A stretch of 64,000 nt of DNA. Origin: Longimicrobiales bacterium (GTDB taxonomy: Bacteria; Gemmatimonadota; Gemmatimonadetes; Longimicrobiales; Gaopeijiaceae). Every line of letters begins with the position of its first letter. The stretch's first letter is position 1. Shown piece after piece: positions 3,872-64,000 of this stretch. The translations under genes and the position numbers were made by a program. The stretch spans positions 1,392,501 through 1,456,500 of the forward strand of contig OY282361.1 of assembly GCA_958295645.1 (NCBI GenBank), given 5' to 3'. The notes under the pieces were generated by a model. That model was not told the DNA's origin. It did not search any database and was given only the letters and a program-made list of their open reading frames with translations.

Positions 3872-3991
3872 GCAAGCGTCTCCAGGAGGACGAGAGGGAT
3901 TGGGGGAGCGGCCCGGGCGTTAGGTTTGCGGAGCCGGAGGTAGAACCTGTCGAATTCAGTCCCCCGCCTGCAAGGCCCGCGGCGCATCCTG

Positions 3992-5191: not shown

Positions 5192-5205
5192 CCCTCGCGA
5201 CGGCC

Positions 5206-5304
5206 GGCGGCAAAGGCCGGCCTGGGGCGGCCCCTCTCAACGCCACCTGCTGGGGCGGCCCTCCCAGCGCCACCTACGCTGGGCCGGCCGCCCCGGCGCT
5301 AGGC
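5206..5304. repeat. GC-rich degenerate tandem repeat between convergent genes
   Basis: Two to three copies of a roughly 28-base unit, each beginning near GGGGCGGCCC and ending CGCCACCT, followed by a GGGCCGGCC/CCCCGGCG palindrome-like stretch. It fills the gap between the convergent polymerase IV and symporter genes, where a bidirectional terminator would be expected. No T-tract follows the palindrome, so a terminator role is only a suggestion. Confidence 0.4.
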
Positions 5305-5306
5305 CC

Positions 5307-47537: not shown

Positions 47538-50500
47538 ATGCGCATCATTGACCGCGGCCTCACGGCAGCCGCGTTGATCGTCCTTTCCCCTCTGGCAGCC
47601 ACGGCGCAGGAAGCGGATCTCGATCCCGACCGTGGTCTTCCCCTCGAGCCTACCCGCTGGGCCCGCTTCACGACCAGCGAGGGAACCTGGATCTCGCTCG
47701 ACGTGAGTCCGGACGGCGCCACGATCGCCTTCGACCTCCTGGGCGACCTCTACTCGATGCCCGCGTCCGGCGGCGCGGCGACCCGCCTCACGAGCGGCCT
47801 GGCGCACGACATGCAACCGCGCTTCAGCCCGGACGGCGCCACGATCGCCTTCGTTTCGGATCGCAGCGGCGACAACAACGTCTGGACGATGCCGGCCGGC
47901 GGCGGCGAACCGCGCCAGCTGAGCAAGGGCGTCGGCAGCCGCTTCCTCTCTCCGGAGTGGATGCCGGACGGGAAGTACGTGCTGGTCTCGCGGGCCGCGC
48001 CGCGCCGGGGACTGGAGAAGCTCTGGCTCTACCACGTGGACGGCGGGACGGGACTGGAGATGGTGGGAGGATCGTTCGGCCAGCGGTTCCTCGGCCCCGC
48101 CGTCGGCCCGGAAGGCCGCTACGTCTGGTACGCGCAGCGGCAGGGCACCTGGAGCTACAACGCCATCTTCCCGCAGTACCAGCTTTGGATGTACGACCGC
48201 CAGACCGGCACTCGGACGCCCGCGACGAACCGCTACGGCTCCGCGTTTCGGCCCGCGGTGTCGCCCGACGGCAAGCTGCTCGCCTACGGCAGCCGCGACG
48301 ACGCCGACACCGGCATTCGCCTGCGCGACTTGGCCTCGGGCGAGGAGCGTTGGCTCGCCTACCCCGTTCAGCGCGACGACAAGGAGTCCACGGCCAACAT
48401 GGACGTGCTCCCGGGCTACGCCTTCACGCCGGAGTCGGACGCGCTGGCGCTCTCCTACGGCGGCGGCATCTGGAGAGTCCCGGTCGACGGGTCCGAGGCC
48501 ACCGAGATCCCCTTCACCGTCGAAGCCGAAGTGGCGGTCGGGCCGGAGGTCGAGTTCGAGTATCCGGTCGAGGACACGCCTACCTTCACGGTCAAGCAGA
48601 TTCGCTCCGCGCGGCCTTCCCCCAGCGGCGACCGGATCGCGTTCGTGGCCCTGGACAGGCTGTACGCCGCCACCTTGCCGGACGGCCGGCCGGAGCGCCT
48701 GACGGACGACGAAGTGGGCGAGTTCGGGCCGGTCTGGTCCCCGGACGGCCGCTACGTCGCCTACGTGACCTGGGACGACGACGCGGGCGAAGGACACGTC
48801 CGCCGCGTCCCCGCGGACGGCGGGCGGCCCACCACGCTGACCACCTCGCCAGCGTACTACCAAGCCCCCGCCTGGTCGCCGGACGGCGAGCGGATCGTGG
48901 CCGTGCGCTCGGCGCGCCGCAATCTCCAGGAGGCCGTCGAGCCCTTCGGCTTCAATCTGGACACGGAGTTCGTGTGGATTCCGGCTTCGGGCGGACCGGC
49001 CACCGTCATCGGCCCCACCGCCGGCAGGCGCCAGCCGCACTTCACCGACGACCCAAGCCGCATCTACTACTACGGCTTCGGGCAGGCGGACCCGATTCCA
49101 GGTTCGCCCGCCGCGCCCCCGCCCGCATTGGCCCTGAGCTCGGCCCGTTGGGACGACACCGACGCCCGGCTCCATCTGCGGGTCACCGCGCGCATCGACT
49201 TGGACGCGGGGAGCGTGGCGCCGGGATACCAAGTGTCGCCGAAGTCCGGCTTGGTGATGCCCGAGGACTTCGGCCAGGAGGAGCCGCGCGAGGTGGTGCC
49301 GCGGCGTTCGGCTGGACTCGTGATGATGGCGCCCGCAGGGGATCAGGCGCTGGCGCAGATAGGCGGCGACCTGTACTCGGTGACGGTGCCGGATCTGGGC
49401 GCGACTCTGCCGGAGGTGGACGTGTTCAAGCCGGACTCGGCGGCCGTGCCGGTCCGCAAGCTCAACCAGCTCGGCGCGGAGTTCCCCGCGTGGGGCGCGA
49501 ACGGACGCACCGTGCATTGGTCGCTCGGCAACGCCTTGTTCACCTACGACTTGGACGCGGCGTCGGGCGACGCGGACTACGAGCCCGCCGAACAGCGGAT
49601 TCGCGTCGAGGCGCCGCGCGACATTCCCGAGGGAGTGGTGGTGCTGCGCGGGGCCACGGCCATCACCATGAACGGCGACGAGATCGTCGAGAACGCCGAC
49701 ATCGTGATCGCAAACAATCGCATTCAGTCGGTGTCGGCGGGTCCCGGCCAGACCCCCGAGGGCGCCAGCGTGATCGACGTCTCCGGCAAGACCATCGTGC
49801 CCGGATTCGTGGACACGCACGCGCATATGTGGAACATGTGGGGCGTGCACTGGGCGCGTCCGTGGATCTACTTGGCGAACTTGGCCTACGGCGTCACCAC
49901 CACGCGCGATCCGCAGACCGCCACCACCGACGTCCTGTCGTACGAAGACATGGTGCGGGCGGGCAAGATCACGGGGCCCCGGGTCTATCACACTGGGCCG
50001 GGAGTCTTTTCCAGCGACGCGGTGCGCAGCTACGAGCACGCGGTGGATGTGCTGCGCAAGTACAGCGACTACTACGACACCAAGACGTTCAAGATGTACA
50101 TGTCCGGCAACCGCCGGCAGCGGCAGTGGCTGATCATGGCCGCCCACGAACTCGAGCTGATGCCCACGACCGAGGGCGGGCTGGACTACCGGCTGAACAT
50201 GACGCACGCCATGGACGGCTATCCGGGCATCGAGCATTCGCTGCCGATCGTCCCGGCCTACGACGACGTCGTGAGGCTGTTCGCGGAGTCGGGGACGGTC
50301 AACTCCCCGACCCTGCTGGTGAGCTACGGCGGACCCTGGGCGGAGAACTACTTCTACACGCACGAGGACGTCTTTGGAGACGAGAAGCTCGTGCACTTCA
50401 CGCCCAAGCGCGAACTCGACTTCAAGGCCCGGCGCCTGCAAACCACCGGGCCGGGGCCGGGCGGGTGGTTCATGGACGAGGAATACGCGTTCGAGAAGCA

Positions 50501-50912
50501 CTCGGGCTGGCTGGCCGAACTCGTGGAGGGCGGCGGGAAGACGGGCGTGGGCAGCCACGGCCAGCTGCAGGGGCTGGGCTACCACTGGGAGCTCTGGGCG
50601 CTTCAGAGCGGCGGAATGGACGAGCACGACGCCTTGCGCGCCGCCACGATCATGGGCGCGGAGGCGATCGGCCTGGGCGGCGACCTGGGGTCCCTCGAAC
50701 CCGGCAAGCTCGCCGACCTCGTGGTGCTGGACCGCAATCCGCTGGCCGACATACGCAACACCAACAGCATCGACAAAGTGATGATGAACGGACGACTGTA
50801 CGACGGCGACACGCTGGACGAGATATGGCCGCGGCAGAGGCCGGCGCCCCCGGAGCCGTGGAGGAACACGGCGCCCAACGTGCGGGCCGGCATCCAGGGA
50901 GAGGCCCGATGA
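47538..50912 (+). CDS. TolB-propeller/amidohydrolase fusion, tandem copy 1
   Basis: A 1124-residue exported protein. The signal peptide ends SPLAATAQ. Residues about 40-690 are WD40-like TolB blades with repeated SPDGxxIAF turns (VSPDGATIAFDLLGDLYSMP, RFSPDGATIAFVSDRSGDNN). The C-terminal 400 residues are an amidohydrolase-superfamily TIM barrel: ISGKTIVPGF-like DVSGKTIVPGFVDTHAHMWN with the HxH metal pair near residue 758, NMTHAMDGYPGIEHSLP, and VGSHGQLQGLGYHWELWA. Such proteins are thought to hydrolyse cyclic amide or dipeptide-like substrates; the substrate is unknown. It overlaps the next gene by ATGA and shares about the same architecture, so the two probably work together. Confidence 0.87.
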   Translation: MRIIDRGLTAAALIVLSPLAATAQEADLDPDRGLPLEPTRWARFTTSEGTWISLDVSPDGATIAFDLLGDLYSMPASGGAATRLTSGLAHDMQPRFSPDGATIAFVSDRSGDNNVWTMPAGGGEPRQLSKGVGSRFLSPEWMPDGKYVLVSRAAPRRGLEKLWLYHVDGGTGLEMVGGSFGQRFLGPAVGPEGRYVWYAQRQGTWSYNAIFPQYQLWMYDRQTGTRTPATNRYGSAFRPAVSPDGKLLAYGSRDDADTGIRLRDLASGEERWLAYPVQRDDKESTANMDVLPGYAFTPESDALALSYGGGIWRVPVDGSEATEIPFTVEAEVAVGPEVEFEYPVEDTPTFTVKQIRSARPSPSGDRIAFVALDRLYAATLPDGRPERLTDDEVGEFGPVWSPDGRYVAYVTWDDDAGEGHVRRVPADGGRPTTLTTSPAYYQAPAWSPDGERIVAVRSARRNLQEAVEPFGFNLDTEFVWIPASGGPATVIGPTAGRRQPHFTDDPSRIYYYGFGQADPIPGSPAAPPPALALSSARWDDTDARLHLRVTARIDLDAGSVAPGYQVSPKSGLVMPEDFGQEEPREVVPRRSAGLVMMAPAGDQALAQIGGDLYSVTVPDLGATLPEVDVFKPDSAAVPVRKLNQLGAEFPAWGANGRTVHWSLGNALFTYDLDAASGDADYEPAEQRIRVEAPRDIPEGVVVLRGATAITMNGDEIVENADIVIANNRIQSVSAGPGQTPEGASVIDVSGKTIVPGFVDTHAHMWNMWGVHWARPWIYLANLAYGVTTTRDPQTATTDVLSYEDMVRAGKITGPRVYHTGPGVFSSDAVRSYEHAVDVLRKYSDYYDTKTFKMYMSGNRRQRQWLIMAAHELELMPTTEGGLDYRLNMTHAMDGYPGIEHSLPIVPAYDDVVRLFAESGTVNSPTLLVSYGGPWAENYFYTHEDVFGDEKLVHFTPKRELDFKARRLQTTGPGPGGWFMDEEYAFEKHSGWLAELVEGGGKTGVGSHGQLQGLGYHWELWALQSGGMDEHDALRAATIMGAEAIGLGGDLGSLEPGKLADLVVLDRNPLADIRNTNSIDKVMMNGRLYDGDTLDEIWPRQRPAPPEPWRNTAPNVRAGIQGEAR

Positions 50913-53900
50913 GCCCCCGCGAGCGCGGATCGAGGCCACAGCCGGCCGACGGAGAGCGTGGTGGTCAGCTACGGCGCGGGGAGACGAGCGCCCGCGAGCG
51001 TGGATCGAGGACGTTGCGGACCAGCGCCACGAGCGCGACCGCGACCCCGGCCTGCGGCGGACGAGCAGGCGCGACGGCCAAGCTGGCCGGGACGCTCGCC
51101 TGCTTGGCCGTCGTCCTCTGGCCGGCGGCGGGAGCGGGAGCAGTGCAACGAGGCGGTCCCGGCGGCCGGGAGAAGCCCCTGCCGCTTCCTGCGGAGCGGA
51201 CCGCGGAGTTCACGGCCACCGAGGGGACGTGGATGTCCCTGGACGTGAGCCCAGACGGCCAGACGATCGTGTTCGACCTGCTGGGCGATCTCTATACGAT
51301 GCCCGTCACGGGCGGAGAGGCGTCCCCGCTGCTCACCGGCATGGCCTACGAGACGCAACCCCGGTTCAGCCCCGACGGCGAGACGGTCGCGTTCGTGTCC
51401 GACCGCAGCGGCGGCGACAACCTGTGGACGATGCGCATCGACAAGACGGACACCACGCAGGTGTCGCGCGGCAACTCCAACCTGTTCCTGTCCCCGGAGT
51501 GGGCGCCCGACGGCGAATTCATCGCAGTCAGCCGCTCTTCGGGACTGGGCGGTTCGGCCAAGCTCTTCCTGTATCACGCCGAACGCGGCTCCCCGCTCGC
51601 GGTCGGCAGCCACGCGGGCACCGCGAAGATGGTGGGCGCCGCCTTCAGCCCGGACGGCCGCCACATCTGGTACGCGCGCGCTTTCGGGGACTGGGACTAC
51701 AACGCGGCCCTCCCGCTCTACCAGCTGTTCCGCTACGACCGCGACACCGGCGTCGCGACCCTCGCGACCAACCGCTACGGCTCGGCCATGCGTCCGGCGG
51801 TGTCGCCCGACGGCCGGTGGCTGGTCTACGCGTCGCGCTACAACGCCGACACCGGGCTTCGCAAGCGCGACTTGCAGACCGGCGACGAAGAATGGCTGGC
51901 CTACCCGGTGCAGCGCGACGAGCAGGAGTCGCGGGCGCCGCTGGACGTGATGCCCGGCTACTCCTTCCTGCCGGACGGGTCGGCCGTCGTCGTCTCCTAC
52001 GGCGGCAAGATCTGGAGCGTGCCCATGGACGGGAGCGATCCGTCCGAGATCGCCTTCGAGGTTCCGGTCGAGCTGGCCATCGGGCCGCAGGTCAAGTTCG
52101 GCTACCAGATCGACACGACCGCCATGGTCACGGCCAGCCAGATCCGCAGCCCCGCGCCCTCCCCCGACGGGAACAGCGTCGTCTTCACCGCCTTCGACCG
52201 GGTGTGGACCAAGGACCTTGCCGACGGCGAGGCCCGCCGCCTTACCGACGGCGACTTGGGCGAGTTCCACCCGCAGTGGTCTCCCGACGGGCAGTGGATC
52301 GCCTACGCCACCTGGGACGACGCGGACGGCGGCCACCTCATGAAGGCTCCCGCTTCCGGCGGCGCGCCCGTGCAGCTGACCGCCTCGGCCGCCATGTACT
52401 ACAACGTGGCCTGGTCGCCGGGCGGCGACCGCATCGTGGCGTCGCGCGGGGAGGCCCGGCAGCTCAAGGAAGCATCCGGCGCCTTCTTCGGGCCGCTCGG
52501 CGGCGAGTTCGTCTGGGTGCCCTCCTCCGGTGCGGCGCCCGCCGAGCCCACCCTGATTTCGCCGACCGGGCTTCGCGACGCGGCCCACTTCGCCGCCGCC
52601 GAGCCCGACCGCATCTACGCCTACAGTCCCATCGAGGGCCTCGTCTCGTTCCGCTGGGACGGCACCGACGTGAAGCGCCACCTCGTGGTGCGAGGCCGCC
52701 AGGGCGTCGCAGGGATCGGCGACCCTCACGCGAGCGAGTGGGAGCATCTCCCCCGCCGCGTCTTCCCGTGGCGCAAGAGGCCGGCGGCCCAGACCGCGAA
52801 CCGGTCGGCGAGGCGGGCCTGGGGGCAGGAGCCGGGCCAGCCGGCGGCCCAGGAGATCGATCCGCCGGGCGAGGCGGGCGGCATCGGGCCGGCCGGCCTG
52901 ATCATGTTGTCGCCGCAGGGCGGCCGGGCCTTCGTGCAGATCGGCCGGGACATCTACGTGGTGGACTTGGCCGAGCTGGGCGAGAATCCGCCCACGGTCA
53001 ACTTGGTCAACTTGGGCGCGTCCCCGCTCCCCATACGCAAGGTCTCCGACATCGGCGGCGAGTTCCCCGCCTGGGCCGCCGACGGGACCGCGGTTCACTG
53101 GGCGTTGGGCAACGTGCTGTTCTCGTACGACTTGGCCGAGGTGGAGTCCGAGGAGGAGGCCGAAGAGCAGACTGCGCACGCGCGGGCCCTGCTCCGCGTG
53201 CGCGCCGCCGCCGTGACGGACACGCTCAAGGAGAAGCGCGCCGAAGCGGACAGCTTGGAGAAGGCGGACGAAGAGGTGCCCGAGGACCTCGAGGAGACGA
53301 TCCGCAGGCTGTCGGCCGACTCCGTGCAGGTGGCGGCCGACTCCATGCTGGCGCGCGCGGACTCCATTCGCCAAGCGGCGGAGGAGATCGCGGCCAAGGC
53401 GACCGCGGTTCGAGGCGGCGACGAGGAAGTCCTGGCCGACTCCACCGAGAGCTACGAGGCGCGCGAACGCAAGATCGAGGCCGAGATGCCTCGCGACGTG
53501 CCTCGCGGAGTGGTGGCGCTTCGGGGAGGACGCGTCGTCACCATGGCCTCGCCCCCTCCGGGCGACTCCTCGGGAGGGCCGCACGTCGTCGAGAACGGCG
53601 TCGTGCTGGTCGAGGACAACCGAATCGTGGCGGTCGGCCCTGCCGATTCCGTCGAGATCCCCGACAGCGCCCGAGTCGTCGACGTGTCGGGCAAGACGCT
53701 GGTCCCCGGCTACGTGGACACCCACTACCACGCCCAGTGGCTGGTGCCGGAAATCCATCCGGAAGAAGTCTGGCAGTACTTGGCCACCCTGTCCTACGGC
53801 GTCACCACCACGCGCGATCCGCAGACCGCCTCCACGGACATCCTCAGCTACGCCGACCGAGTCAATACGGGGGGCATGACGGGGCCGCGCATCTACTCCA

Positions 53901-54841
53901 CCGGACCCGGCGTCTTCCTCAGCGAGAACATCCGCAACGCCGACCACGCCAAGTCGGTCCTGCGCCGCTATTCGCAGTACTTCGACACCAAGACGATCAA
54001 GATGTACATGTCGGGCAACCGGCAGCAGCGGCAGTGGATCATCCAGGCGGCCAAGGCGCTCAAGCTGATGCCCACGACCGAGGGCGGGCTGGACTTCAAG
54101 ATCGACATGACCCATGCGATCGACGGCTACCCCGGCATCGAGCACAACCTGCCCATCGCGCCGATCTACTCGGACGTGGTGGAGCTGTTCAAGAAGTCCC
54201 AGACGACCAACACGCCCACGTTGCTGGTGTCCTACGGCGGTCCGTTCGGCGAGAACTACTTCTACGCCACCGAAGACGTGCACGACGACCCGAAGTTGAA
54301 CGTCTTCCTGCCGGCGGAGAACATCGACGCGCGGACGCGCAGGCGGGGGCCGGGCGCGGGCGGCAGTCCAGGCATGGCAGGCTGGTTCCTGGAGGAGGAA
54401 TACGTCTTCCCCCGCCACGGCGAGTTCGTCAAGAAGATGCTGGAAGACAGCGCGCGGATGGCGGTCGGCAGCCACGGCCAGCTGCAGGGGCTCGGGTACC
54501 ACTGGGAGCTCTGGGCGATGGCGGCCGGCGGCGCCTCCAACCACGACATCCTGCGGGCCGCCACCATTCTCGGGGCCGAGGCGATTGGATTCGGCGACCA
54601 GATCGGCAGCATCGAGAAGGACAAGTTCGCGGACATCGTGGTGCTCGACGGCAACCCGCTGGACGATCTTCGGAACACGGCCGCAATCCGCTACGTCATG
54701 AAGGACGGACGCCTGCACGACGGAACGACGCTGGACGAAATCCATCCCGTGGCCCGAACCTTGGAGCGGCAACGGCCGCCGGAAGCGCGCGCTTCCGGGA
54801 CCTCGGCAGGAGTCCGCACGCCGGCCCGCGCCCGCCGGTAG
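50909..54841 (+). CDS. TolB-propeller/amidohydrolase fusion, tandem copy 2 with coiled-coil insert
   Basis: A 1310-residue paralogue of the preceding gene. After a long basic N-region, the export segment is LAGTLACLAVVLWPAAGAGA. The propeller then repeats SPDG turns, and the amidohydrolase barrel has LVPGYVDTHYHAQWLVPE with its HxH near residue 936, DMTHAIDGYPGIEHNLP and VGSHGQLQGLGYHWELWA. Between the two domains (residues about 744-857) is an acidic, Ala/Glu-rich helical insert (EVESEEEAEEQTAHARALL, then ADSVQVAADSMLARADSIRQ), absent from copy 1. The ATG at 50909 overlaps the preceding stop with GGGAGAGG upstream; internal starts are possible, because the first 45 residues are unusual for a signal peptide. 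Confidence 0.85.
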   Translation: MSPRERGSRPQPADGERGGQLRRGETSARERGSRTLRTSATSATATPACGGRAGATAKLAGTLACLAVVLWPAAGAGAVQRGGPGGREKPLPLPAERTAEFTATEGTWMSLDVSPDGQTIVFDLLGDLYTMPVTGGEASPLLTGMAYETQPRFSPDGETVAFVSDRSGGDNLWTMRIDKTDTTQVSRGNSNLFLSPEWAPDGEFIAVSRSSGLGGSAKLFLYHAERGSPLAVGSHAGTAKMVGAAFSPDGRHIWYARAFGDWDYNAALPLYQLFRYDRDTGVATLATNRYGSAMRPAVSPDGRWLVYASRYNADTGLRKRDLQTGDEEWLAYPVQRDEQESRAPLDVMPGYSFLPDGSAVVVSYGGKIWSVPMDGSDPSEIAFEVPVELAIGPQVKFGYQIDTTAMVTASQIRSPAPSPDGNSVVFTAFDRVWTKDLADGEARRLTDGDLGEFHPQWSPDGQWIAYATWDDADGGHLMKAPASGGAPVQLTASAAMYYNVAWSPGGDRIVASRGEARQLKEASGAFFGPLGGEFVWVPSSGAAPAEPTLISPTGLRDAAHFAAAEPDRIYAYSPIEGLVSFRWDGTDVKRHLVVRGRQGVAGIGDPHASEWEHLPRRVFPWRKRPAAQTANRSARRAWGQEPGQPAAQEIDPPGEAGGIGPAGLIMLSPQGGRAFVQIGRDIYVVDLAELGENPPTVNLVNLGASPLPIRKVSDIGGEFPAWAADGTAVHWALGNVLFSYDLAEVESEEEAEEQTAHARALLRVRAAAVTDTLKEKRAEADSLEKADEEVPEDLEETIRRLSADSVQVAADSMLARADSIRQAAEEIAAKATAVRGGDEEVLADSTESYEARERKIEAEMPRDVPRGVVALRGGRVVTMASPPPGDSSGGPHVVENGVVLVEDNRIVAVGPADSVEIPDSARVVDVSGKTLVPGYVDTHYHAQWLVPEIHPEEVWQYLATLSYGVTTTRDPQTASTDILSYADRVNTGGMTGPRIYSTGPGVFLSENIRNADHAKSVLRRYSQYFDTKTIKMYMSGNRQQRQWIIQAAKALKLMPTTEGGLDFKIDMTHAIDGYPGIEHNLPIAPIYSDVVELFKKSQTTNTPTLLVSYGGPFGENYFYATEDVHDDPKLNVFLPAENIDARTRRRGPGAGGSPGMAGWFLEEEYVFPRHGEFVKKMLEDSARMAVGSHGQLQGLGYHWELWAMAAGGASNHDILRAATILGAEAIGFGDQIGSIEKDKFADIVVLDGNPLDDLRNTAAIRYVMKDGRLHDGTTLDEIHPVARTLERQRPPEARASGTSAGVRTPARARR

Positions 54842-54870: not shown

Positions 54871-55707
54871 ATGAACCTTCCCGTCGGCGACCCGCGCACC
54901 GGAGGAGGACTGCGCGGGAAGCGCGCCGCCGGCTATCCCGTCTCGCAGGAGGCGCTGCCCCACGAGGACTTGAAGTCCGGCGCCTACCGCCTGACCTTCG
55001 CTCGTTCGATGGAGCAGGTGCGGGCGCTGCAGCGGCTGCGCTTCGAAGTCTTCAACTTGGAACTGGGGGAAGGGCTGGAGGAGTCCTTCGCCTCCGGCCT
55101 GGACGAGGACGATCTCGACGAGGCCCTGCATCACCTGCTCATCGTGGACGACAGGACCGGCAAGGCCGTCGGTACCTACCGGATGCAGACGGCGGCGATG
55201 GCGGCGGCCAACTGCGGCTTCTACTCCGCGCGCGAGTTCGACGTCTCCGGGTTCCCGCTCGCGGTCGTGGACGACTCGGTGGAGGTGGGCCGGGCCTGCA
55301 TCGCCAAGGAGCACCGGAGCCGGCGGGTTCTGCACCTGCTGTGGCGAGGCTTGGCGCGCTACCTCATGTGGACGGACAAGCACTATCTCTTCGGGTGCTG
55401 CTCGCTGACCACGCAGGACGGGCGCGTGGGCAACGTCGTGCACGCGCAACTGGTGAAGGACGGGCGTCTGCATCCCACGGTGCGGGCCTGGCCGCTCCCC
55501 GGCTTCGAATGCGGCCTGCACGACCACGGGACCGGCTTGGCGGCGGAGGCCACGGAGATTCCGCCGCTGTTCGCGAGCTACCTGAGCTTGGGCGCCAAGA
55601 TTTGCGGGCCGCCCGCCGTGGACCGGGAGTTCGGCACGATCGACTTCCTGGTGGTCCTGGACGTCCGCGAGCTCGAAGACCATGTTCGGCGCAACTTCTT
55701 CCGCTAG
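54871..55707 (+). CDS. olsB: OlsB-like GNAT N-acyltransferase (ornithine lipid-type)
   Basis: A 278-residue member of the hemolysin-like GNAT acyltransferases (COG3176). These transfer a 3-hydroxyacyl chain from acyl carrier protein to the alpha-amino group of ornithine or another amino acid, the first step of ornithine-lipid synthesis. Family features are RALQRLRFEVFNLELGEGLE, VGTYRMQTAAMAAAN, DSVEVGRACIAKEHRSRRVL and the C-terminal LGAKICGPPAVDREFGTIDF. A strong GAGAGGAGG precedes the ATG by about 8 bases. Its end overlaps the next acyltransferase gene by 26 bases, the OlsB-OlsA order, which supports the assignment. The amino-acid head group cannot be read from sequence; ornithine is the default. 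Confidence 0.82.
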   Translation: MNLPVGDPRTGGGLRGKRAAGYPVSQEALPHEDLKSGAYRLTFARSMEQVRALQRLRFEVFNLELGEGLEESFASGLDEDDLDEALHHLLIVDDRTGKAVGTYRMQTAAMAAANCGFYSAREFDVSGFPLAVVDDSVEVGRACIAKEHRSRRVLHLLWRGLARYLMWTDKHYLFGCCSLTTQDGRVGNVVHAQLVKDGRLHPTVRAWPLPGFECGLHDHGTGLAAEATEIPPLFASYLSLGAKICGPPAVDREFGTIDFLVVLDVRELEDHVRRNFFR

Positions 55708-56464
55708 GGCCGTCCTTCGCGTGCCGGCGGTCTTCGCCTGGACCGCCTCCGTAGCCCTGGTTCTCGCGGTCGCTTGGTTGCCCGCGCTGGTTGCCGCCGG
55801 TTCCGGAGGGGCTTGGCGGGACCGCGTCCGCCGCGTCCTTCACCGCCTGTGGGGACGAGGCGCGCTACGCATCCTGGGGGTCCGGGTGGCGTGCAGCGGG
55901 ACGCCCCCTCCGGCAGGCCGTCTCGTCGTGTCGAACCACCTGAGCTATCTGGACATCATGGTGCTGGGATCGCTGTTGCCGGTGGTGTTCGTTTCCAAGT
56001 CCGAGGTGCGGAACTGGCCGTTCGTCGGGCTGGTGGCGACGATGGCGGGGACCATCTACATCGACCGCAATCGCAAGCGGGACGCATTGCGGGTGCTCGC
56101 GCAGATGCAGACGGCGCAGGACGGAGGCGACTGCGTGGTGATCTTCCCGGAAGCCACCAGCACGGACGGATCCACCATTCTGCCGTTCCGGTCTTCGCTG
56201 TTCGCCGCCGCGGCGAGGGCGGGCGCTCCGGTGCGATGGACCACGCTGTCCTACCGGACGCCCTCCGGCGCGCCCCGGGCACGCGACCGGGTCTGCTGGT
56301 GGGGGGACGCCGGCTTCGTGGGCCACTTCCTGCGGCTGTGCGGCCTGAAGCGGATCGACTGCACCGTGCACTTCGGGGACTCGCCCGTGCGCTCGCAGGA
56401 CCGCAAAGCGCTGGCCAGGACGCTGCGCGAGGCCATGTTGCAACGGTTTCGGCCCGTTGCCTGA
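55682..56464 (+). CDS. olsA: 1-acylglycerol-3-phosphate acyltransferase-like (OlsA-type PlsC family)
   Basis: A 260-residue membrane-associated O-acyltransferase. A hydrophobic N-terminal helix (residues about 15-40) is followed by motif I NHLSYLD at 85-91 (the NHxxxxD catalytic His-Asp), IYIDRNRKR and motif III FPEATSTDG at about 155-163. In ornithine-lipid synthesis this family adds the second acyl chain to the lyso-lipid made by OlsB; general phosphatidic-acid synthesis is the alternative. Overlap with olsB by 26 bases and with the next gene by 8 bases indicates one translationally coupled operon. Confidence 0.82.
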   Translation: MFGATSSARAVLRVPAVFAWTASVALVLAVAWLPALVAAGSGGAWRDRVRRVLHRLWGRGALRILGVRVACSGTPPPAGRLVVSNHLSYLDIMVLGSLLPVVFVSKSEVRNWPFVGLVATMAGTIYIDRNRKRDALRVLAQMQTAQDGGDCVVIFPEATSTDGSTILPFRSSLFAAAARAGAPVRWTTLSYRTPSGAPRARDRVCWWGDAGFVGHFLRLCGLKRIDCTVHFGDSPVRSQDRKALARTLREAMLQRFRPVA

Positions 56465-56987
56465 CGCGCTGGCCCTCAACCTGGAGCTGCTCGGCCAGAC
56501 GGAAACGGCGATCGAGCTGCTGGCGGACGGCTTCTCCACGCCGGCGGCGGGCGGGGCGACGCCGGGGGCGCACTTCCGCCACCTGCTGGACCACTACCAG
56601 TGCCTGCTTGGCGGGCTCGAGGCCGGGCGCGTGGACTATCACGAGCGCCAGCGCGACCGGGGAACGGAATCCAACCCGGCCCTCGCGCTCGCCGTATGCA
56701 GGGCCTGCCGCGAAGAGCTGCTGAGGGCGACGGGGTCGCGCATGGAGGAGGTGGTCCACGTGCGCACCGGACACGATCCCGCCGAGCGCGACTGGGCGGC
56801 CACGACCGTCAAGCGCGAGCTGGCCTTCTGCGCCAGCCACACGCTCCACCACTTGGCCATCGTGAAGATGATGGCCCGCGAGAGGGGGGTGGACCTGGGC
56901 GAGCACGTGGGCGTCGCGCGTTCGACGGCGGATCATCGGAAGGGCGGAGGGGCGGAGGGGCAGGCGGCCGCGCTCCCGGAGCGCTGA
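56457..56987 (+). CDS. DinB-superfamily four-helix protein, unknown function
   Basis: A 176-residue protein with DinB/YfiT-like features: HFRHLLDHYQCLLGGLEAG, VDYHERQRDRGTE and ASHTLHHLAIVKMMARERG. The His residues in the first and last helices would form the metal site of this fold. Unlike the polymerase DinB, these are metal-dependent small-molecule or thiol transferases, or proteins of unknown role. Start is TTG 56457, overlapping the OlsA-like gene by 8 bases; alternatives further in would remove the first helix. Its place inside the lipid operon suggests a role in head-group chemistry, but nothing in the sequence proves this. Confidence 0.65.
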   Translation: MPDALALNLELLGQTETAIELLADGFSTPAAGGATPGAHFRHLLDHYQCLLGGLEAGRVDYHERQRDRGTESNPALALAVCRACREELLRATGSRMEEVVHVRTGHDPAERDWAATTVKRELAFCASHTLHHLAIVKMMARERGVDLGEHVGVARSTADHRKGGGAEGQAAALPER

Positions 56988-56988
56988 C

Positions 56989-57825
56989 TTGTGCACGATC
57001 AGCTGGATTCCCGAGCCGGGCGGCTACCGGCTTTGGATGAATCGCGACGAGGCGCGCAGTCGGGCGGCGGCGCGGGGGCCGCGGGCGCTGCGACTGCGGT
57101 TGGGGTCGGCCGTGGCGCCGCTCGACCCGCAGGGCGGCGGCTCCTGGATCGGGGCGACGGCGGGCGGGATGTCGCTGGCGCTCGCGAACGCCTATGCGGG
57201 CTTGCCGGCCTCGGGCGCGGCGGCGGCGAAGGCGGAGTTCGGAGCGCGAACCGGTCCAGTGTCGCGCGGACTCCTGTTGATGGAGGCGCTGGGGCGCGGG
57301 GAGGGCGAGGCGGTGCGGCGCATGGTGGCCGAGAAGGATCTTTCGGCGTACCGACCCTTTCGGCTTTGCGTCTTCGAGCCGGATGCGCCCGTCCGCAGGC
57401 TGGACTGGGACGGAGAGGCGCTGTCCGAGACGATGGTGGAGGAGGCTGGGCTCGTGGCCACGTCGTCCTCCTGGCAGCCGGAAGAGGTGGCGAGGCGGCG
57501 GGCCGCGTTGTTTCGGCGGGCGGGGCGGGAATGCGGGGGATTCTCGGCGGCCTTGCTGGATCGTCTGCACGCGAGCCGCGAGCCGGAGCCGGGGCCGTGG
57601 GCGGTGTCGATGGAGCGGCCTGACGCGGCAACGGTGAGCCTGAGCCGGATCAAGGTGTCGGAAGCGGAAGTGACGTTCTGGTACGCTGGCGGGCCGCCGC
57701 ATCGCACGGAGGCGGGGCCGCCCCGGGTGTTGGTTCGGGAAGCGGCGCCGTGCGAGCCGGTCGAGGAGTGCGGGGCGCCCCGGCCGCGGCGGCGGGAAGC
57801 GACGGTCGCGGGAAGGCGGCGGTAG
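56989..57825 (+). CDS. NRDE/TANGO2 family protein
   Basis: A 278-residue protein beginning MCTISWIPEPGGYRLWMNRDE: Cys2 and the NRDE motif at residues 18-21 define the TANGO2 family, which is related to Ntn-hydrolases. Cys2 would become the N-terminal nucleophile after Met removal. GGGSWIGATAGGMSLALANA is the other family block. Eukaryotic TANGO2 is linked to lipid or heme handling and Golgi organisation; bacterial members are uncharacterised. The start must be the TTG at 56989, one base after the preceding stop codon, since the Cys must be second. The last 40 residues are Arg/Pro-rich. It sits inside the lipid operon. Confidence 0.82.
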   Translation: MCTISWIPEPGGYRLWMNRDEARSRAAARGPRALRLRLGSAVAPLDPQGGGSWIGATAGGMSLALANAYAGLPASGAAAAKAEFGARTGPVSRGLLLMEALGRGEGEAVRRMVAEKDLSAYRPFRLCVFEPDAPVRRLDWDGEALSETMVEEAGLVATSSSWQPEEVARRRAALFRRAGRECGGFSAALLDRLHASREPEPGPWAVSMERPDAATVSLSRIKVSEAEVTFWYAGGPPHRTEAGPPRVLVREAAPCEPVEECGAPRPRRREATVAGRRR

Positions 57826-57830
57826 TTCGC

Positions 57831-60608
57831 TTGGCCGGGAGGCGGGAGGGCGGAGAGTCGCCGGGATCTGCGCGGCGCGGCGGGGCGGACGCCGGGAGCA
57901 GGCGGGAGCGCGGTAGGCGAACCGACCGGCGGGAGCCGCGCGCCGGAGAGTCGCCGCCGGGCAAGCGGCCCCGGATCAGGCGCTGGCTGTTGCTGGGCTA
58001 TCTCGTGTTGCTGGGCACCTCCCACTTGGTTCGCTGGCCGGCGGCGAGTCCCCAGGCCGGACCGGACCAGCATGTCCAGGAGGTCGCGGGGCATCCGGCC
58101 ATCGGCGTTCCGGTGGAGGTCGCCTACCGGGAGTGGACGCCGGCGTCCCCAGCGACGGGCGACCCCGTTCTTCTCATCCACGGAAGTCCCGGTTCGGGGC
58201 GCGCGTTCGGGGCGCTGGGTCCCGTGTTCGGGGCGGAACGCCGGACGCTGGCGCCCGACCTGCCCGGCTTCGGCGGCTCGACCGCCCAGGTGCCCGACTA
58301 TTCCATCCGAGCCCACGCCGCGGTCGTGCTCCAGTGGCTCGACTCGCTCGGCGTCGGCCGAGTTCACGCCGTCGGCTTCTCGCTGGGCGGCGGGGTAGCC
58401 CTGGAAATGCACCGGGCCGACCCCGAACGCCTCCTCTCCCTGACCCTGCTCTCTTCCGTCGGCGCGCAGGAATTCGAGCTCCTGGGCGACCATCACCTCA
58501 ATCGCGCCATCCACGGCCTCCAACTCGCGGCGCTCTGGTCCCTGAGGGAACTCGTCCCCCACTTCGGGGTTCTCGACGGCGGCTTCCTGACCCACGCCTA
58601 CGCCAGGAACTTCTTCGACACCGACCAGCGCCCCCTGCGCGGCATCCTCTCGGCCTACCCCGGCCCCGTGCTCGTCGTCCACGGAACGCAGGACCCGCTG
58701 GTGCCGGCGGAGGCCGCCCGCGAGCACCACCGCATCGTGCCGCAGTCGGAGCTCGTCATGCTCGACGGCGACCACTTCATGGCCTTCCAGCTGCCCGGCG
58801 TGATCGGCCCGCCGATCTCCGACTTCATCGCCCGAACCGAGGCCGGAACCGCAACCGTGAGGGCGAACGCATCCCCCGAACGCCTACGCGCCGCCGAAGC
58901 CCCGCTGGGCCGCCTGCCCCCCGTCTCCGGACTGGCGCTGGTCACCACCGTGCTGCTCGTCGCCCTGGCGACCTTCGTCTCCGAAGACTTGGCCTGCATC
59001 GGCGCCGGGCTCCTGATCGCGCGAGGCTCCCTGCCCTGGCTGCCCGGCGTCGCGGCCTGCTTCGCCGGCATCTTCGTGGGCGACCTGCTTCTGTACGCGG
59101 CCGGGCGCCTCGCCGGCTCGACGGTCGTGAAGGCCGCGCCCTTCAAGTGGTTCCTCCGCCCGGAAGACTTGGCGCGCTCCTGCCGCTGGTTCACGAAGCG
59201 GGGTCCGGCGCTCATCCTGTGGGGGCGGTTCGTTCCCGGAACCCGGCTTCCCACCTACGTCGCCGCCGGCGTGCTGCGCGTCCCCTCGGCGCTGTTCGCG
59301 ATCTGGACGCTGATCGCCGCTGTCCTGTGGACGCCGTTGCTGGTCGGCGCCGCAACCTTGTTCGGCGCGGCCTCGTCGGCTTGGTTCGTGGGCTTCCGGG
59401 AGCGCGCGTTTCCTTGGCTGGCGGTCACCGCCGTGGCCGCGCTGCTCGCGTTCCGCACCGTGGCCACCCTGTCGAACGCGGCCTCGCGACGGCGCCTCGC
59501 GACCCGCTGGGACCGCCTGCGCCGCTGGGAGTTCTGGCCCGCCTGGGTGTTCTACGCGCCCTTGGCCGCCTGGGTGGCTTGGCTGGCCTTGCGCCATCGG
59601 TCGCTCACGCTGTTCACGGTCGCCAATCCGGGGTTCCCGCACGGGGGACTCGTCGGCGAGTCGAAGGCGCACATCCTGTCCTCGTTCGCCGACCAGGAGA
59701 GCGTGGCGGAGACGTGGCTGCTGGACCCGGCTCAGGGGGGAGCGGCCCGGCTGGTGGCGGGCGAGGCGGTACGGGAGGCGGCGGACGCACCGGCTTCTTC
59801 GGGCGACAGCATGGCCATCGGCGAACCCGCCGCAACGGGCGAACCCGCACCGCGTCCGTGGACCTTCCCGCTCGTCGTCAAGCCGGACGTGGGCGAACGG
59901 GGAGCGGGCGTGGCCGTGGTTCACAGCCAAGAGGAACTCGATCGGGACTTGGCGACGAGGCGGTCGCGCGTTCTCCTGCAACGCTACGTGCACGGCGACG
60001 AACTCGGCGTCTTCTACTACCGCCTGCCCGGCGAGCCGCACGGCCGCGTCTTCGGCATCACCGAGAAGCGCCTGCCGTCCGTGACGGGCGACGGCCGCAG
60101 CGCCGTCGGCGATCTCATCCGCCGCGACGTCCGCCTTCGCTGCCAGGAGCGAACCCTTCGCCGGGGGCTGGGGAACGAGGCCGAACGGGTGCCCGCCCTG
60201 GACGAGAAGGTCGCCGTCGGCGAACTGGGCAACCACTGCCTGGGCTGCGAGTTCCGAGACGGCGCCCATCTGGGAACGCCCGCCCTCGCAACCGCGATCG
60301 ACGAGGTCAGCCTCGGCGTGCCCGGCTTCCACATCGGTCGCTACGACATCCGCGGCACGATGGAGGACATGCAAGCCGGCCGCTTCAAGGTCATCGAACT
60401 GAACGGCGTGTCGTCGGACGCCACCAACGTCTACGATCCCCGCAATTCGCTGCGCAGCGCCTACGGCACCTTGTTTCGGCAGTGGACCATCGCCTTCCGA
60501 ATCGCCGCCGCCAACCGCAGCCGGGGCGCCAAGCCGTCGGGGCTGTTGCCCGTGCTCGCGGCGGTGGCGCACCACTTCCGCCCGTCGGGAGCGAGGTGGG
60601 CTCCGTAG
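57831..60608 (+). CDS. Alpha/beta hydrolase - DedA/VTT - ATP-grasp tripartite fusion
   Basis: About 925 residues from a TTG at 57831, just after the preceding stop; a GTG at 57750 is an alternative. After a membrane helix (LLLGYLVLLGTSHLV), residues about 110-330 are an alpha/beta hydrolase: HGSPGSGR oxyanion turn, nucleophile Ser184 in GFSLGG, Asp288 in GTQDPLVP, His315 in DGDHFMAF. Residues about 365-545 are a DedA/VTT domain with SEDLACIGAG and GRFVPGTRLPTYVAAGVL, the family of lipid translocases and scramblases. One more helix follows. Residues about 600-905 are ATP-grasp: VVKPDVGERGAGV (Lys684), RYVHGDELGVFYY and FKVIELNGVSSDATNVYDP (metal-binding Glu-Asn). All three active sites look intact. 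ATP-grasp enzymes form amide or ester bonds, often to amino acids. The operon context suggests lipid modification. Confidence 0.8.
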   Translation: MAGRREGGESPGSARRGGADAGSRRERGRRTDRREPRAGESPPGKRPRIRRWLLLGYLVLLGTSHLVRWPAASPQAGPDQHVQEVAGHPAIGVPVEVAYREWTPASPATGDPVLLIHGSPGSGRAFGALGPVFGAERRTLAPDLPGFGGSTAQVPDYSIRAHAAVVLQWLDSLGVGRVHAVGFSLGGGVALEMHRADPERLLSLTLLSSVGAQEFELLGDHHLNRAIHGLQLAALWSLRELVPHFGVLDGGFLTHAYARNFFDTDQRPLRGILSAYPGPVLVVHGTQDPLVPAEAAREHHRIVPQSELVMLDGDHFMAFQLPGVIGPPISDFIARTEAGTATVRANASPERLRAAEAPLGRLPPVSGLALVTTVLLVALATFVSEDLACIGAGLLIARGSLPWLPGVAACFAGIFVGDLLLYAAGRLAGSTVVKAAPFKWFLRPEDLARSCRWFTKRGPALILWGRFVPGTRLPTYVAAGVLRVPSALFAIWTLIAAVLWTPLLVGAATLFGAASSAWFVGFRERAFPWLAVTAVAALLAFRTVATLSNAASRRRLATRWDRLRRWEFWPAWVFYAPLAAWVAWLALRHRSLTLFTVANPGFPHGGLVGESKAHILSSFADQESVAETWLLDPAQGGAARLVAGEAVREAADAPASSGDSMAIGEPAATGEPAPRPWTFPLVVKPDVGERGAGVAVVHSQEELDRDLATRRSRVLLQRYVHGDELGVFYYRLPGEPHGRVFGITEKRLPSVTGDGRSAVGDLIRRDVRLRCQERTLRRGLGNEAERVPALDEKVAVGELGNHCLGCEFRDGAHLGTPALATAIDEVSLGVPGFHIGRYDIRGTMEDMQAGRFKVIELNGVSSDATNVYDPRNSLRSAYGTLFRQWTIAFRIAAANRSRGAKPSGLLPVLAAVAHHFRPSGARWAP

Positions 60609-60774: not shown

Positions 60775-62094
60775 ATGCTGACGCGGTTGCGGGTCGAGGG
60801 ATACAAGTCCCTTCGAGAGGTTGACGTGAAGTTCGAGCCCCTGACCGCGTTGTTCGGGCCCAACGCCGCCGGCAAGAGCAACATTCTCGATGCGCTTCAG
60901 TTGCTGTCCCGACTGGCGACCAGCCGCACTCTGAAGGAGGCGTTCGAGCCGCCGTATCGCGGCAAGCCTCTCGAGTCGTTCAGCTTCGGTCCGGGAGGAC
61001 TTAAGGAGTTGGTGGCCAAAGACCATTTGCATTTCACCATTGAAGCCGACTTGGAGCTGTCCGATGGCGTGGTGGAGAAGGTGGAGAAAGAGATTCGCGA
61101 CATGCGGCAACCGAGCCGAATCGCTTCGTCCAACGGTGGCACACGTTCGCCGGCCCGTGTGCGCGAACGGTTCCTCCGGTACCGACTCAAGATCGAGATG
61201 CTGCCCCGGTCGGGAATCTTGAGGGTGGCCGACGAGTACTTGGCCGCGCTCGACGCCGCGGGAACGCCCAAGAAGAACCGCAGGCCCTTCCTTGAGCAGC
61301 AAGAAGGCAAGCTTCGCCTCCGCTTGGAGCAGCAGGCCCACCCGCGGTACTACGAACGCCATCTGGATCACACGATCCTCTCGATGCCTCATTATCCGCC
61401 CCACTATCCCCACGTGGCAGCCGCACGCCGCGAACTGGAGAGTTGGCTGTTCTTCTACTTCGAGCCGCGCGAGCGGATGCGAACGGCCAATCCGGTGAAA
61501 GAGGTCCGACACATCGGATTGATGGGCGAGAACTTGGCGTCGTTCCTGAACACGCTCAAGGCGACGGACGTGCGGCAGTTCGAAGGAGTCGAGAAGGCCC
61601 TGCGCCTGCTGATCCCAAACATCGACGGCATTGACGTGGACGTGAACGAGCTGGGCGAAGTCGAGCTTCGCATTCGGGAAAACGGCGTTTCATTTCCCGC
61701 CCGGGTCGTCTCGGAAGGCACGTTGCGGCTACTGGGCTTGCTCGCTCTCGCCGGCGCAGAAGACGACCCGTCGCTGGTGGGCTTCGAAGAACCCGAGAAT
61801 GGCGTCCATCCACGCCGAATCGAGCTGATCGCCGAGTTTCTGAAGACCCGCCAACTCATGGGCAAGACGCAATACATCGTCACGACCCACTCGCCGATCC
61901 TGCCCGACATGCTTCCCGACGAGTCCTTGTTCGCGGTTCGCCGCGGCGAGCGAAGTACGCGGGTCGATCCATCGGTTGCTTGGGGACCTTTGGGCCACTT
62001 GAATCGATCAGAAGACATCAAGCGAGCTTTGTCGGACGACGAACAGGCCCTGCCCGTGTCCGATCGAATCATGCGGGGCGACTTCGATGCGTGA
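60775..62094 (+). CDS. SMC-like ABC ATPase (AAA_21), defence-type
   Basis: A 439-residue ATPase with Walker A GPNAAGKS at residues 28-35 right after LRVEGYKSLREVDVKF. The signature region is VSEGTLRLLGLLALAG, Walker B is LVGFEEPENGVHP at about 334-346, and the switch is IVTTHSPILPD at about 369. It belongs to the OLD/RloA-like branch often paired with Toprim or other effectors in anti-phage systems. The stop overlaps the start of the DUF4276 gene by 8 bases, so the pair is translated together. GGAGGAG precedes the ATG. It is related to the damaged ATPase at 38438-39364 but is complete. Confidence 0.85.
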   Translation: MLTRLRVEGYKSLREVDVKFEPLTALFGPNAAGKSNILDALQLLSRLATSRTLKEAFEPPYRGKPLESFSFGPGGLKELVAKDHLHFTIEADLELSDGVVEKVEKEIRDMRQPSRIASSNGGTRSPARVRERFLRYRLKIEMLPRSGILRVADEYLAALDAAGTPKKNRRPFLEQQEGKLRLRLEQQAHPRYYERHLDHTILSMPHYPPHYPHVAAARRELESWLFFYFEPRERMRTANPVKEVRHIGLMGENLASFLNTLKATDVRQFEGVEKALRLLIPNIDGIDVDVNELGEVELRIRENGVSFPARVVSEGTLRLLGLLALAGAEDDPSLVGFEEPENGVHPRRIELIAEFLKTRQLMGKTQYIVTTHSPILPDMLPDESLFAVRRGERSTRVDPSVAWGPLGHLNRSEDIKRALSDDEQALPVSDRIMRGDFDA

Positions 62095-62704
62095 AGTGGC
62101 CATGTTCGTGGAAGACAAGGCACACGAACTCATAGTGGGCTCGTTGGTTCGGCGGATGGCCGCCGAGCAAGGCGTGCAGATCAAAGTGGACGTGCGCAGC
62201 GCTCACGGCGGACACGGCAGGGTCGCAAAGACATTCCGCCAGTACTTGCGTGACGTCGATCGTCAATCCGCCGATGTTGTCAGTCTGGTGGTCGTGGCGA
62301 CCGACACAAACTGCAAGGGGATCAACAAGCGAGCCGACGAGATCCGGACAGCAAGCGAGCCGATCCCCGTCGTCCGGGCCATTCCCGATCCGCACGTAGA
62401 GCGTTGGTTGCTGTTGGACGGTGCAGCCTTCAAGCAGGTCTTCGGCACGGGATGCGACGCGCCGGATCGCAAGTGCGAGCGCAACCTGTACAAGCAACGT
62501 CTCATGCAAGCAATCGTTACTACCGGGCGGAAGCCGCCTCTTGGCGGAATCGAACACGCCGAGGAAATCGTGGAGGCCATGGACATCCACCGGGCCTGCG
62601 AGGCGGACAATTCGTTCGACCGTTTCGTGAGCGACCTGCGCGCCGCATTTAGAACATGGCCCCGGCCGCCCGCTACGGCCGGTAGTTCTCCATCTCCCGT
62701 TTGA
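62087..62704 (+). CDS. DUF4276 Toprim-like protein, partner of the ATPase
   Basis: A 205-residue protein starting MREVAMFVEDKAHELI, with acidic Glu9 and Glu14 in the position of the Toprim Glu. VVVATDTNCKG has Asp73 and Asn75 in the DxD position, followed by DPHVERWLLLDGAAF, a DUF4276 hallmark. DUF4276 proteins resemble the nuclease domain of OLD-family proteins. Together with the upstream ATPase it would act as a two-part nuclease, triggered by infection. The last 32 bases overlap the convergent symporter gene, and the C-terminal residues after about 190 look like an extension read from that overlap. Nuclease activity is inferred only. Confidence 0.78.
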   Translation: MREVAMFVEDKAHELIVGSLVRRMAAEQGVQIKVDVRSAHGGHGRVAKTFRQYLRDVDRQSADVVSLVVVATDTNCKGINKRADEIRTASEPIPVVRAIPDPHVERWLLLDGAAFKQVFGTGCDAPDRKCERNLYKQRLMQAIVTTGRKPPLGGIEHAEEIVEAMDIHRACEADNSFDRFVSDLRAAFRTWPRPPATAGSSPSPV

Positions 62705-64000
62705 CCACCGGGGCCAGGAAGTACAGGCCCGCCAAGTTGGGGATGGCGATCACGAAGACCAAGGCGTCGGAGAAGTCCAGGAGCGCGGTGAGTTCCACGC
62801 TGGAACCCACGACGACGCAGATGCAGAAGAACAGCTTGAATCCCAGGTCGCGGGCGCGGCCTTGGCCCACCAAGTAGGTGAACGCCTTGAGGCCGTAGTA
62901 GGACCAAGCCAGCATGGTCGAGTAGGCGAAGAGGAGGGCGAAGACGGCGAGCGCCGCGGGGGCCCACGACACGGCGGTGGCGAAGGCGCGGGCCGTGAGT
63001 TCGATGCCGCTGGCTGCGCCGCCGGCCGTCAAGGGATCGTAGACGGTGGTGATGATGACGAGCGCCGTCATCGTGCAGATCACGACGGTGTCGATGAACG
63101 GCTCGAGGAGGGCGACGTAGCCTTCGCTGACGGGCTTGGCCGTCTGCGCGGTCGAATGGGCGATCGCGGCGCTCCCCAGGCCCGCCTCGTTGGAGAAGAC
63201 GGCCCTTCGGAACCCCAGAATCGCCACTCCCAGGGCGCCCCCGGCGATGCCCTCGGCGCCGAACGCACCGTTCCAGATGGCGGCAAACGCCCAGGGAACG
63301 CGGTCGGCGTTGACCGCGATCACCGCCAGCGCCGAACCCACGTACAACAGGGCCATGCCCGGCACCAGCTTCTCGGTCGTGTTGGCGATCGACCGGATGC
63401 CGCCCACGATGACGACGCCGACTAGCACGGCCAGGACGACCCCCAGAATCCACGCGTTGGCCGACAGCACGCTGTTGCCGAGCACGTCCAGCAGGATGGC
63501 CGTCGCCTGGTTGGACTGGAACATGTTGCCGATGCCCACGCAGCCCACCACGATGCTCGCCGCGTAGAAGACGCCGAGCGCCTTGCCCAGCCGCGGCAGG
63601 CCCCTGTCCGCGAGGCCGCGCGACAAGTAGTACATGGGGCCGCCCGAAACCGATCCGTCGGCGTGATTCTTGCGATAGAGCACGCCCAGGGTGCATTCGG
63701 CGAACTTCGTGGACATGCCCAGCAGGCCCGCCACGATCATCCAGAAGGTGGCGCCGGGTCCGCCGACGGAAATCGCCACCGCCACGCTCGCGATGTTGCC
63801 GATTCCGACCGTCCCGGACACCGCCGTAGTCAGCGCCTGGAACTGCGAGATCTCGCCCGGATCGCCCGGCCGGCGGTACTTGCCCGAGAGGATGCGCACC
63901 GCCTGCGCGAACCCGCGGACGTTGACGAACCGCAGATAGCTCGTGAAGAAGACGCCGCCCGCGACCAGCCAGACCACGATGAGCGGCACCTGCGCGCCCA
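62673..64000 (-). CDS. Sodium:alanine symporter family protein (AGCS), partial at right edge
   Basis: At least 440 residues; the frame runs off the window, so the first helix is incomplete. AGCS blocks are ALTTAVSGTVGIGNIASVAV, VSGGPMYYLSRGLADRG, NEAGLGSAAIAHSTAQTAKP and LEPFIDTVVICTMTALVII. It is a standard-length family member without the large insert of the paralogue at 5307-7049. It would import alanine or glycine with sodium. Its 3' end overlaps the convergent DUF4276 gene by 32 bases. The two AGCS genes in one window fit an amino-acid-consuming lifestyle. Confidence 0.92.
   Translation of the reverse strand, partial: GAQVPLIVVWLVAGGVFFTSYLRFVNVRGFAQAVRILSGKYRRPGDPGEISQFQALTTAVSGTVGIGNIASVAVAISVGGPGATFWMIVAGLLGMSTKFAECTLGVLYRKNHADGSVSGGPMYYLSRGLADRGLPRLGKALGVFYAASIVVGCVGIGNMFQSNQATAILLDVLGNSVLSANAWILGVVLAVLVGVVIVGGIRSIANTTEKLVPGMALLYVGSALAVIAVNADRVPWAFAAIWNGAFGAEGIAGGALGVAILGFRRAVFSNEAGLGSAAIAHSTAQTAKPVSEGYVALLEPFIDTVVICTMTALVIITTVYDPLTAGGAASGIELTARAFATAVSWAPAALAVFALLFAYSTMLAWSYYGLKAFTYLVGQGRARDLGFKLFFCICVVVGSSVELTALLDFSDALVFVIAIPNLAGLYFLAPVVKREMENYRP

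Follow-up and report, generated by a model that had tools for sequence, protein, structure and literature searches.

A hydrolase–VTT–ATP-grasp fusion protein beside aminolipid acyltransferase genes in Gemmatimonadota

Aminolipids stand in for phospholipids in many bacteria. In a 64,000-nucleotide stretch of contig OY282361.1 from a Longimicrobiales bacterium, referred to below as the window, one reading frame following two aminolipid-type acyltransferase genes joins an alpha/beta hydrolase, a VTT domain of the DedA kind, and an ATP-grasp ligase. The locus raises the question of whether this is a genuine protein and, if so, what it does. Each domain is of a known kind, while the three-domain protein and the module of VTT, ATP-grasp, acyltransferase, DinB, and TANGO2 genes appear to be undescribed in the searchable literature. 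No such protein was found in the literature on ATP-grasp enzymes together with DedA, TANGO2, or ornithine lipid, older amidoligase surveys lying outside the reach of that search.

The three-domain protein and its recurrence

The stop-free frame at 57750-60608 (+ strand) encodes all three domains as one ORF. The candidate start is a TTG at 57831, located 5 bases past the stop of the upstream TANGO2 gene, and the frame is open upstream of it from 57750. The features of the protein and of the preceding genes are as follows.

54871..55707, + strand: OlsB-type N-acyltransferase (PF13444, Acetyltransf_5, 94.7 bits)
55682..56464, + strand: PlsC/OlsA-type O-acyltransferase (PF01553, 79.2 bits)
56457..56987, + strand: DinB-superfamily protein (PF12867)
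56989..57825, + strand: TANGO2/NRDE family protein (PF05742), with Met-Cys start and NRDE motif
57831..60608, + strand: three-domain protein whose start codon is uncertain, made up of an N-terminal anchor followed by alpha/beta hydrolase, VTT, and ATP-grasp domains
57978..58034, + strand: N-terminal membrane anchor, preceded by an Arg-rich stretch, predicted N-in
58080..58880, + strand: alpha/beta hydrolase domain, Ser-Asp-His invariant, predicted periplasmic
58905..59480, + strand: VTT domain of the E-D-motif subgroup, with GRFVPGTR
59481..59600, + strand: basic linker and amphipathic/hydrophobic helix RRWEFWPAWVFYAPLAAWVAWLALRHRS, also kept in unfused Pseudomonadota ligases
59601..60605, + strand: ATP-grasp ligase domain, K/E/D/E-x-N invariant in 19 relatives from two phyla, predicted cytoplasmic

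The same order of domains occurs in 22 Gemmatimonadota genomes from two families of the same class, as 15 complete frames (the window included) and 7 split by contig ends. Full-length matches were found in two of 58 related genomes besides the window's own, at 64% and 61% identity, and a scan of genome contigs with the ligase domain returned a single relative, L035, which is the same contig as G012. Across the phylum, the ligase is present in 20 of 249 sampled genomes, and no unfused copy of it was seen in the Gemmatimonadota genomes searched. Because other genera and a second family also have the fusion, at 47-63% identity, a chance read-through is excluded, as is an assembly error, and the fusion is genuine. 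A non-ATG start codon and a high GC content, which opens long frames in other registers, are what an artefact joining separate genes by read-through, frameshift, or misassembly might also produce. However, the 15 complete loci come from independent assemblies with the same order in one frame, and invariant residues run through all three domains and across the junctions, the linkers being conserved as well in an alignment of 11 fusions; the probability of an artefact is consequently negligible. A sequence-only reading of the locus had proposed this joined protein, with the reservation that its homologues might always be three separate genes. The recurrence of the fusion within Gemmatimonadota bears out the proposal and removes the reservation.

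Domain cores, membrane sides, and unfused relatives

In the Pfam search suggested by that reading, Abhydrolase_1 (PF00561) matched at aa 139-236 (E 6.8e-26, 91.9 bits against a cut-off of 25.8) and VTT_dom (PF09335) at aa 419-534 (E 9.4e-15, 55.6 bits against 33.9). The ATP-grasp region searched as a single sequence fell under the Pfam cut-offs, with a best E of 0.03, yet a profile of relatives did match. Three complete catalytic cores had been claimed, and their key residues are indeed invariant across the 11 aligned fusions (A1 numbering): Ser147-Asp251-His278 of the hydrolase, Glu348-Asp349 and Arg429/Arg435 of the VTT domain, and Lys647, Glu687, Asp802, Glu819, and Asn821 of the ligase.

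The profile, built from 19 ligase relatives, matched PDB sequences 7ta5 (4e-13) and 8fxh (3e-12) over profile positions 91-286, which reach the E-x-N site; the matches are ATP-grasp structures of the cyanophycin-synthetase/glutathione-synthase type. K110, D265, E282, and N284 are invariant in all 19 relatives from two phyla. Among NCBIfam models, the nearest were mostly amide ligases, including N-acetylglutaminylglutamine synthetase (2.3e-6) and cyanophycin synthetase (5e-6). The earlier doubt that this region might match no ATP-grasp profile is thereby settled, and judged by sequence the C-terminal region is a real ATP-grasp domain. ATP-grasp enzymes mostly join a carboxylate to an amine or thiol via an acyl phosphate, and the profile matches to carboxylate-amine ligases would fit a ligation of that kind here. 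The domain resembles the amide ligases that make cyanophycin, NAGGN, glutathione, and D-Ala-D-Ala in its Lys, metal-binding Asp, and Glu-x-Asn as well as in its profile matches. It differs from them in scoring under every curated family cut-off and in its apparent tethering to the membrane: in the forms seen, it is either fused to a VTT domain or encoded by a single gene in which a hydrophobic helix still precedes the domain, a hint that its substrate is membrane-bound.

Hydropathy and charge bias place the Arg-rich N-terminus inside, the hydrolase outside, the VTT part across the membrane with three crossings, and the ATP-grasp domain inside. The hydrolase is predicted outside because a single N-in anchor precedes it and it is net acidic, and the ligase inside because it needs ATP and its flanks are basic. 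This predicted arrangement agrees with the earlier suggestion that the two enzymes lie on opposite sides of the membrane. An AlphaFold2 model made from two sequences had a pLDDT of 30.

The VTT domain resembles the DedA/VTT transporters UptA and YqjA in its above-cut-off VTT_dom match, in GRFxPGxR, and in two Arg residues six apart, which correspond to R130/R136 of YqjA (PMC7818093). It differs from them in having two enzymes attached, in its E-D motif, and in its position in the tree. A 99/99 branch separates the fused and ligase-adjacent VTT domains of two phyla from 12 other VTT domains of Gemmatimonadota, in a tree whose comparison domains all come from one phylum and whose Paracoccus row is long-branched. 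Most generic domains in the alignment carry E-N-x-x-P-P-x-P, a motif missing from every fused and ligase-associated VTT aligned; these have E-D instead, or E-E in Paracoccus. Consequently, the earlier description of SED as a motif of DedA has to be revised, S/L/H-E-D being the mark of the VTT subgroup that travels with this ligase. Against the NCBIfam UptA equivalog, the domain scored 47.9 bits where 250 are needed (E 1.6e-12), and an UptA identity was rejected on the absent motif and the separate 99/99 group.

Beyond Gemmatimonadota, relatives come from plasmid-collection records only, where 28 Pseudomonadota records hold the ligase at 29-38% identity; a phage collection gave no match. In Pseudomonadota, the ligase stands beside a VTT gene, beside a hydrolase and a VTT gene, alone, or fused to VTT only. 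VTT and ligase are neighbouring genes in Vibrio, Photobacterium, and Salinivibrio, and Azospirillum has a two-domain VTT-ligase fusion that lacks the hydrolase. In Paracoccus, the ligase is followed by a hydrolase gene and then by a convergent VTT gene. Unfused homologues are available in Vibrionaceae, Variovorax, and Paracoccus, and a two-domain homologue in Azospirillum. Since one 99/99 VTT group spans two phyla and the Azospirillum fusion consists of VTT and ligase only, the VTT-ligase pairing is, on sequence grounds, old. Outside Gemmatimonadota, a hydrolase (about 30% identity) adjoins the ligase in Paracoccus only, most Pseudomonadota loci with ligase and VTT having no adjacent hydrolase match, and for this reason the hydrolase role is the weakest part of the scheme proposed below.

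Hydrolase pairs about 30% similar to the fused hydrolase were also seen in other Gemmatimonadota (L008, L010, L011, L013-L017, and L022), with no VTT or ligase match near them in the stretch read. In Variovorax and Komagataeibacter, genes for a methyltransferase and an iron-containing redox enzyme lie close to the ligase; at L077, L082, and L078, these upstream neighbours are a haem-oxygenase-like iron redox enzyme (PF14518) and the methyltransferase, and they may possibly perform further lipid-tailoring steps.

Aminolipid genes and TANGO2 around the fusion

The window genes OlsB, PlsC, DinB, TANGO2, and fusion follow one another at 54871-60608 in the same (+) orientation, overlapping slightly or lying less than 10 bases apart. 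The adjacent PF13444 and PF01553 acyltransferases recall ornithine-lipid synthesis by OlsB/OlsA or OlsF. There, OlsB attaches a 3-hydroxy fatty acid to the amino group of an amino acid, and the second acyl chain comes from a PlsC-type enzyme. At each of the 18 Gemmatimonadota loci with enough upstream contig to judge, OlsB-PlsC precedes the fusion, either directly or with only DinB-TANGO2 in between. The window, G012, and the second family have this intervening pair, and genus g25 lacks it. Among the 249 sampled genomes, OlsB occurs in 19 of the 20 that have the ligase, the locus of the twentieth being truncated at a contig end, and in 14 of the 229 others (Fisher 1e-18, uncorrected for kinship). 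A third Gemmatimonadota family has OlsB-PlsC without the fusion, which is therefore not needed for the basic lipid. One further locus, L132 (G172, 3641-6760), has OlsB-PlsC but lacks the fusion; its DinB and TANGO2 are truncated and continue into other sequence, and the module looks decayed.

The linkage to OlsB/PlsC or OlsF is conserved across two phyla. VTT, ATP-grasp, DinB, and TANGO2 genes are adjacent in Vibrionaceae, and in Vibrio and Photobacterium the run continues from TANGO2 through a YHS protein and ends in an OlsF-like PlsC-GNAT protein. Production of ornithine lipid has been demonstrated for two V. cholerae OlsF homologues, VC0489 and VCA0646 (PMC12186959). The ligase gene of Variovorax is followed by one of the OlsB type; no such gene was seen near the ligase in the stretch examined in Paracoccus, Komagataeibacter, and Azospirillum. 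The window system differs from the ols pathways in its further genes: among the pathway descriptions found, none includes an ATP-grasp ligase, VTT, DinB, or TANGO2.

The window TANGO2 scores 25.6 bits against a cut-off of 22.6 (PF05742). In 13 sampled Gemmatimonadota genomes with TANGO2, the gene lies beside PlsC/OlsB in 10, beside OlsF in one, and elsewhere in two of a single genus, while all 8 TANGO2 matches in the plasmid collection come from records where it adjoins the ligase. In two phyla, the DinB-TANGO2 pair is found with OlsB-PlsC or with OlsF, the aminolipid synthases, at window positions 56457-57825, L005 5054-6358, and L136 7047-10237; L136 is a DinB-TANGO2-OlsF run, and the stretch read there gave no match to ligase or VTT. 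Whether TANGO2 acts in the handling of heme or of lipids is a matter of debate (PMC10470608, PMC11867700, PMC12782551), and no paper treating it together with ornithine lipid, nor any description of an aminolipid link, was found in the literature searched. Its linkage to aminolipid genes argues for a role on the lipid side in these bacteria, which is not proof for the human protein. The tie to amino-acid-lipid synthesis nevertheless gives a bacterial system in which the lipid side of the dispute can be tested.

It is likely, given these neighbours, that the three-domain protein works in aminolipid metabolism. Since it clusters with amino-acid-lipid enzymes and a TANGO2 relative, it probably modifies and moves phosphorus-free amino-acid lipids by an undescribed route. 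The conserved acyltransferase neighbours thus lend strong independent weight to the earlier idea of a lipid-modifying machine, of which the chemistry, the movement of lipid by VTT, and the editing by the hydrolase are kept here as proposals.

Possible pathways

The favoured scheme, in which the fusion tailors and translocates lipids within an ornithine-lipid-type pathway, is tentative, its acceptance being close to an even call. We infer its substrates, the order and direction of its steps, the amine, and the hydrolase reaction, and the head group and amine are guesses. The OlsB and PlsC-type steps at the inner leaflet would yield an N-acyl-amino-acid lipid. The cytoplasmic ATP-grasp domain would activate the free alpha-carboxylate of this lipid as an acyl phosphate and couple a small amine to it, such as taurine or an amino acid, so that the head group becomes conjugated in the manner of cerilipin. 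The E-D-type VTT domain would then carry the lipid from one leaflet to the other, and in the periplasm the hydrolase might trim it, turn it over, or transfer an acyl or head group, with DinB and TANGO2 supplying accessory steps. One polypeptide would thus be the candidate ligase, translocator, and hydrolase for conjugated aminolipid head groups.

Known lipids offer partial parallels. Amine-conjugated aminolipids exist in the form of taurine-ornithine lipid (PMC4484230, PMC12493201). In cerilipin, the ornithine-taurine lipid of Gluconobacter cerinus, an amine is joined to an aminolipid head group, which is the predicted product type, and ligase relatives occur in Komagataeibacter of the same family, Acetobacteraceae; no gene named for cerilipin or other conjugated head groups such as taurine-ornithine was found in the literature searched. 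OlsI, the O-acyltransferase of planctomycete ornithine lipid, has an alpha/beta-hydrolase fold (PMC12493201). It is comparable to the window hydrolase by fold and indicates that such a fold is able to act on lyso-ornithine lipid, although the window cluster already has a PlsC-type O-acyltransferase.

The favoured sequence of events (amidation on the inner side, movement by VTT, then hydrolysis or a transfer reaction on the outer side) has two grounds: the free alpha-carboxylate of an N-acyl-amino-acid lipid suits a carboxylate-amine ligase, and the predicted sides agree. The ATP-grasp domain could instead act before the acyltransferases, making a dipeptide-like or amidated soluble head group that OlsB then acylates, with VTT and hydrolase handling the finished lipid. 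Its closest profiles are soluble amino-acid or peptide ligases (cyanophycin, N-acetylglutaminylglutamine, and glutathione synthetase), yet its own ties to the membrane suggest otherwise, and this order is judged unlikely. Somewhat less probable again is remodelling or salvage, in which the hydrolase deacylates lipid outside, VTT returns a lyso-lipid or fatty acid, the ATP-grasp domain re-activates the carboxylate inside, and TANGO2 handles acyl-CoA. The intact hydrolase triad and the predicted membrane sides would suit such a cycle, as would the reported binding of acyl-CoA by human TANGO2 (PMC11867700). However, the usual ATP-grasp chemistry and the amide-forming character of the closest profiles fit it poorly, and so do the many Pseudomonadota loci that pair ligase and VTT without an adjacent hydrolase.

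A cell-wall function, with VTT as an UptA-like undecaprenyl-phosphate flippase, the ligase making or editing a D-Ala-D-Ala-like peptide, and the aminolipid genes as bystanders, is quite improbable. Some records do annotate the ligase as a D-alanine--D-alanine ligase, and the UptA models do match the VTT part, though far below cut-off. The VTT subgroup nevertheless lacks the generic motif and stands apart from all 12 generic domains, and the linkage to OlsB, PlsC, and OlsF recurs in two phyla. Returning to the favoured scheme, a broader version of it would have a cross-phylum module (E-D-type VTT and ATP-grasp, OlsB/PlsC or OlsF, DinB, and TANGO2, with a fused periplasmic hydrolase in Gemmatimonadota) make and translocate a new class of amide-conjugated aminolipids, and would also trace TANGO2, the protein linked to human disease, back to an ancestor that served as an enzyme or carrier in the metabolism of N-acyl amino-acid lipids or acyl-thioesters. 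Taken as a whole, this compound claim is speculative and more doubtful than the scheme itself.

Other genes flank the cluster in the window. Upstream, at about 47660-54841 (+ strand), large genes read like periplasmic beta-propeller and amidohydrolase proteins, perhaps two tandem paralogues, and a 2294-aa ORF among them may read its first stretch out of the coding frame. Directly downstream, at 60775-62704, an AAA_21 ATPase gene overlaps that of a DUF4276 protein; PADLOC matches both proteins to HEC-01, a candidate defence system (6.5e-60 and 1.2e-6), and the pair is convergent with a sodium:alanine symporter family gene at 62673-63989 on the - strand (PF01235, E 1.5e-119).
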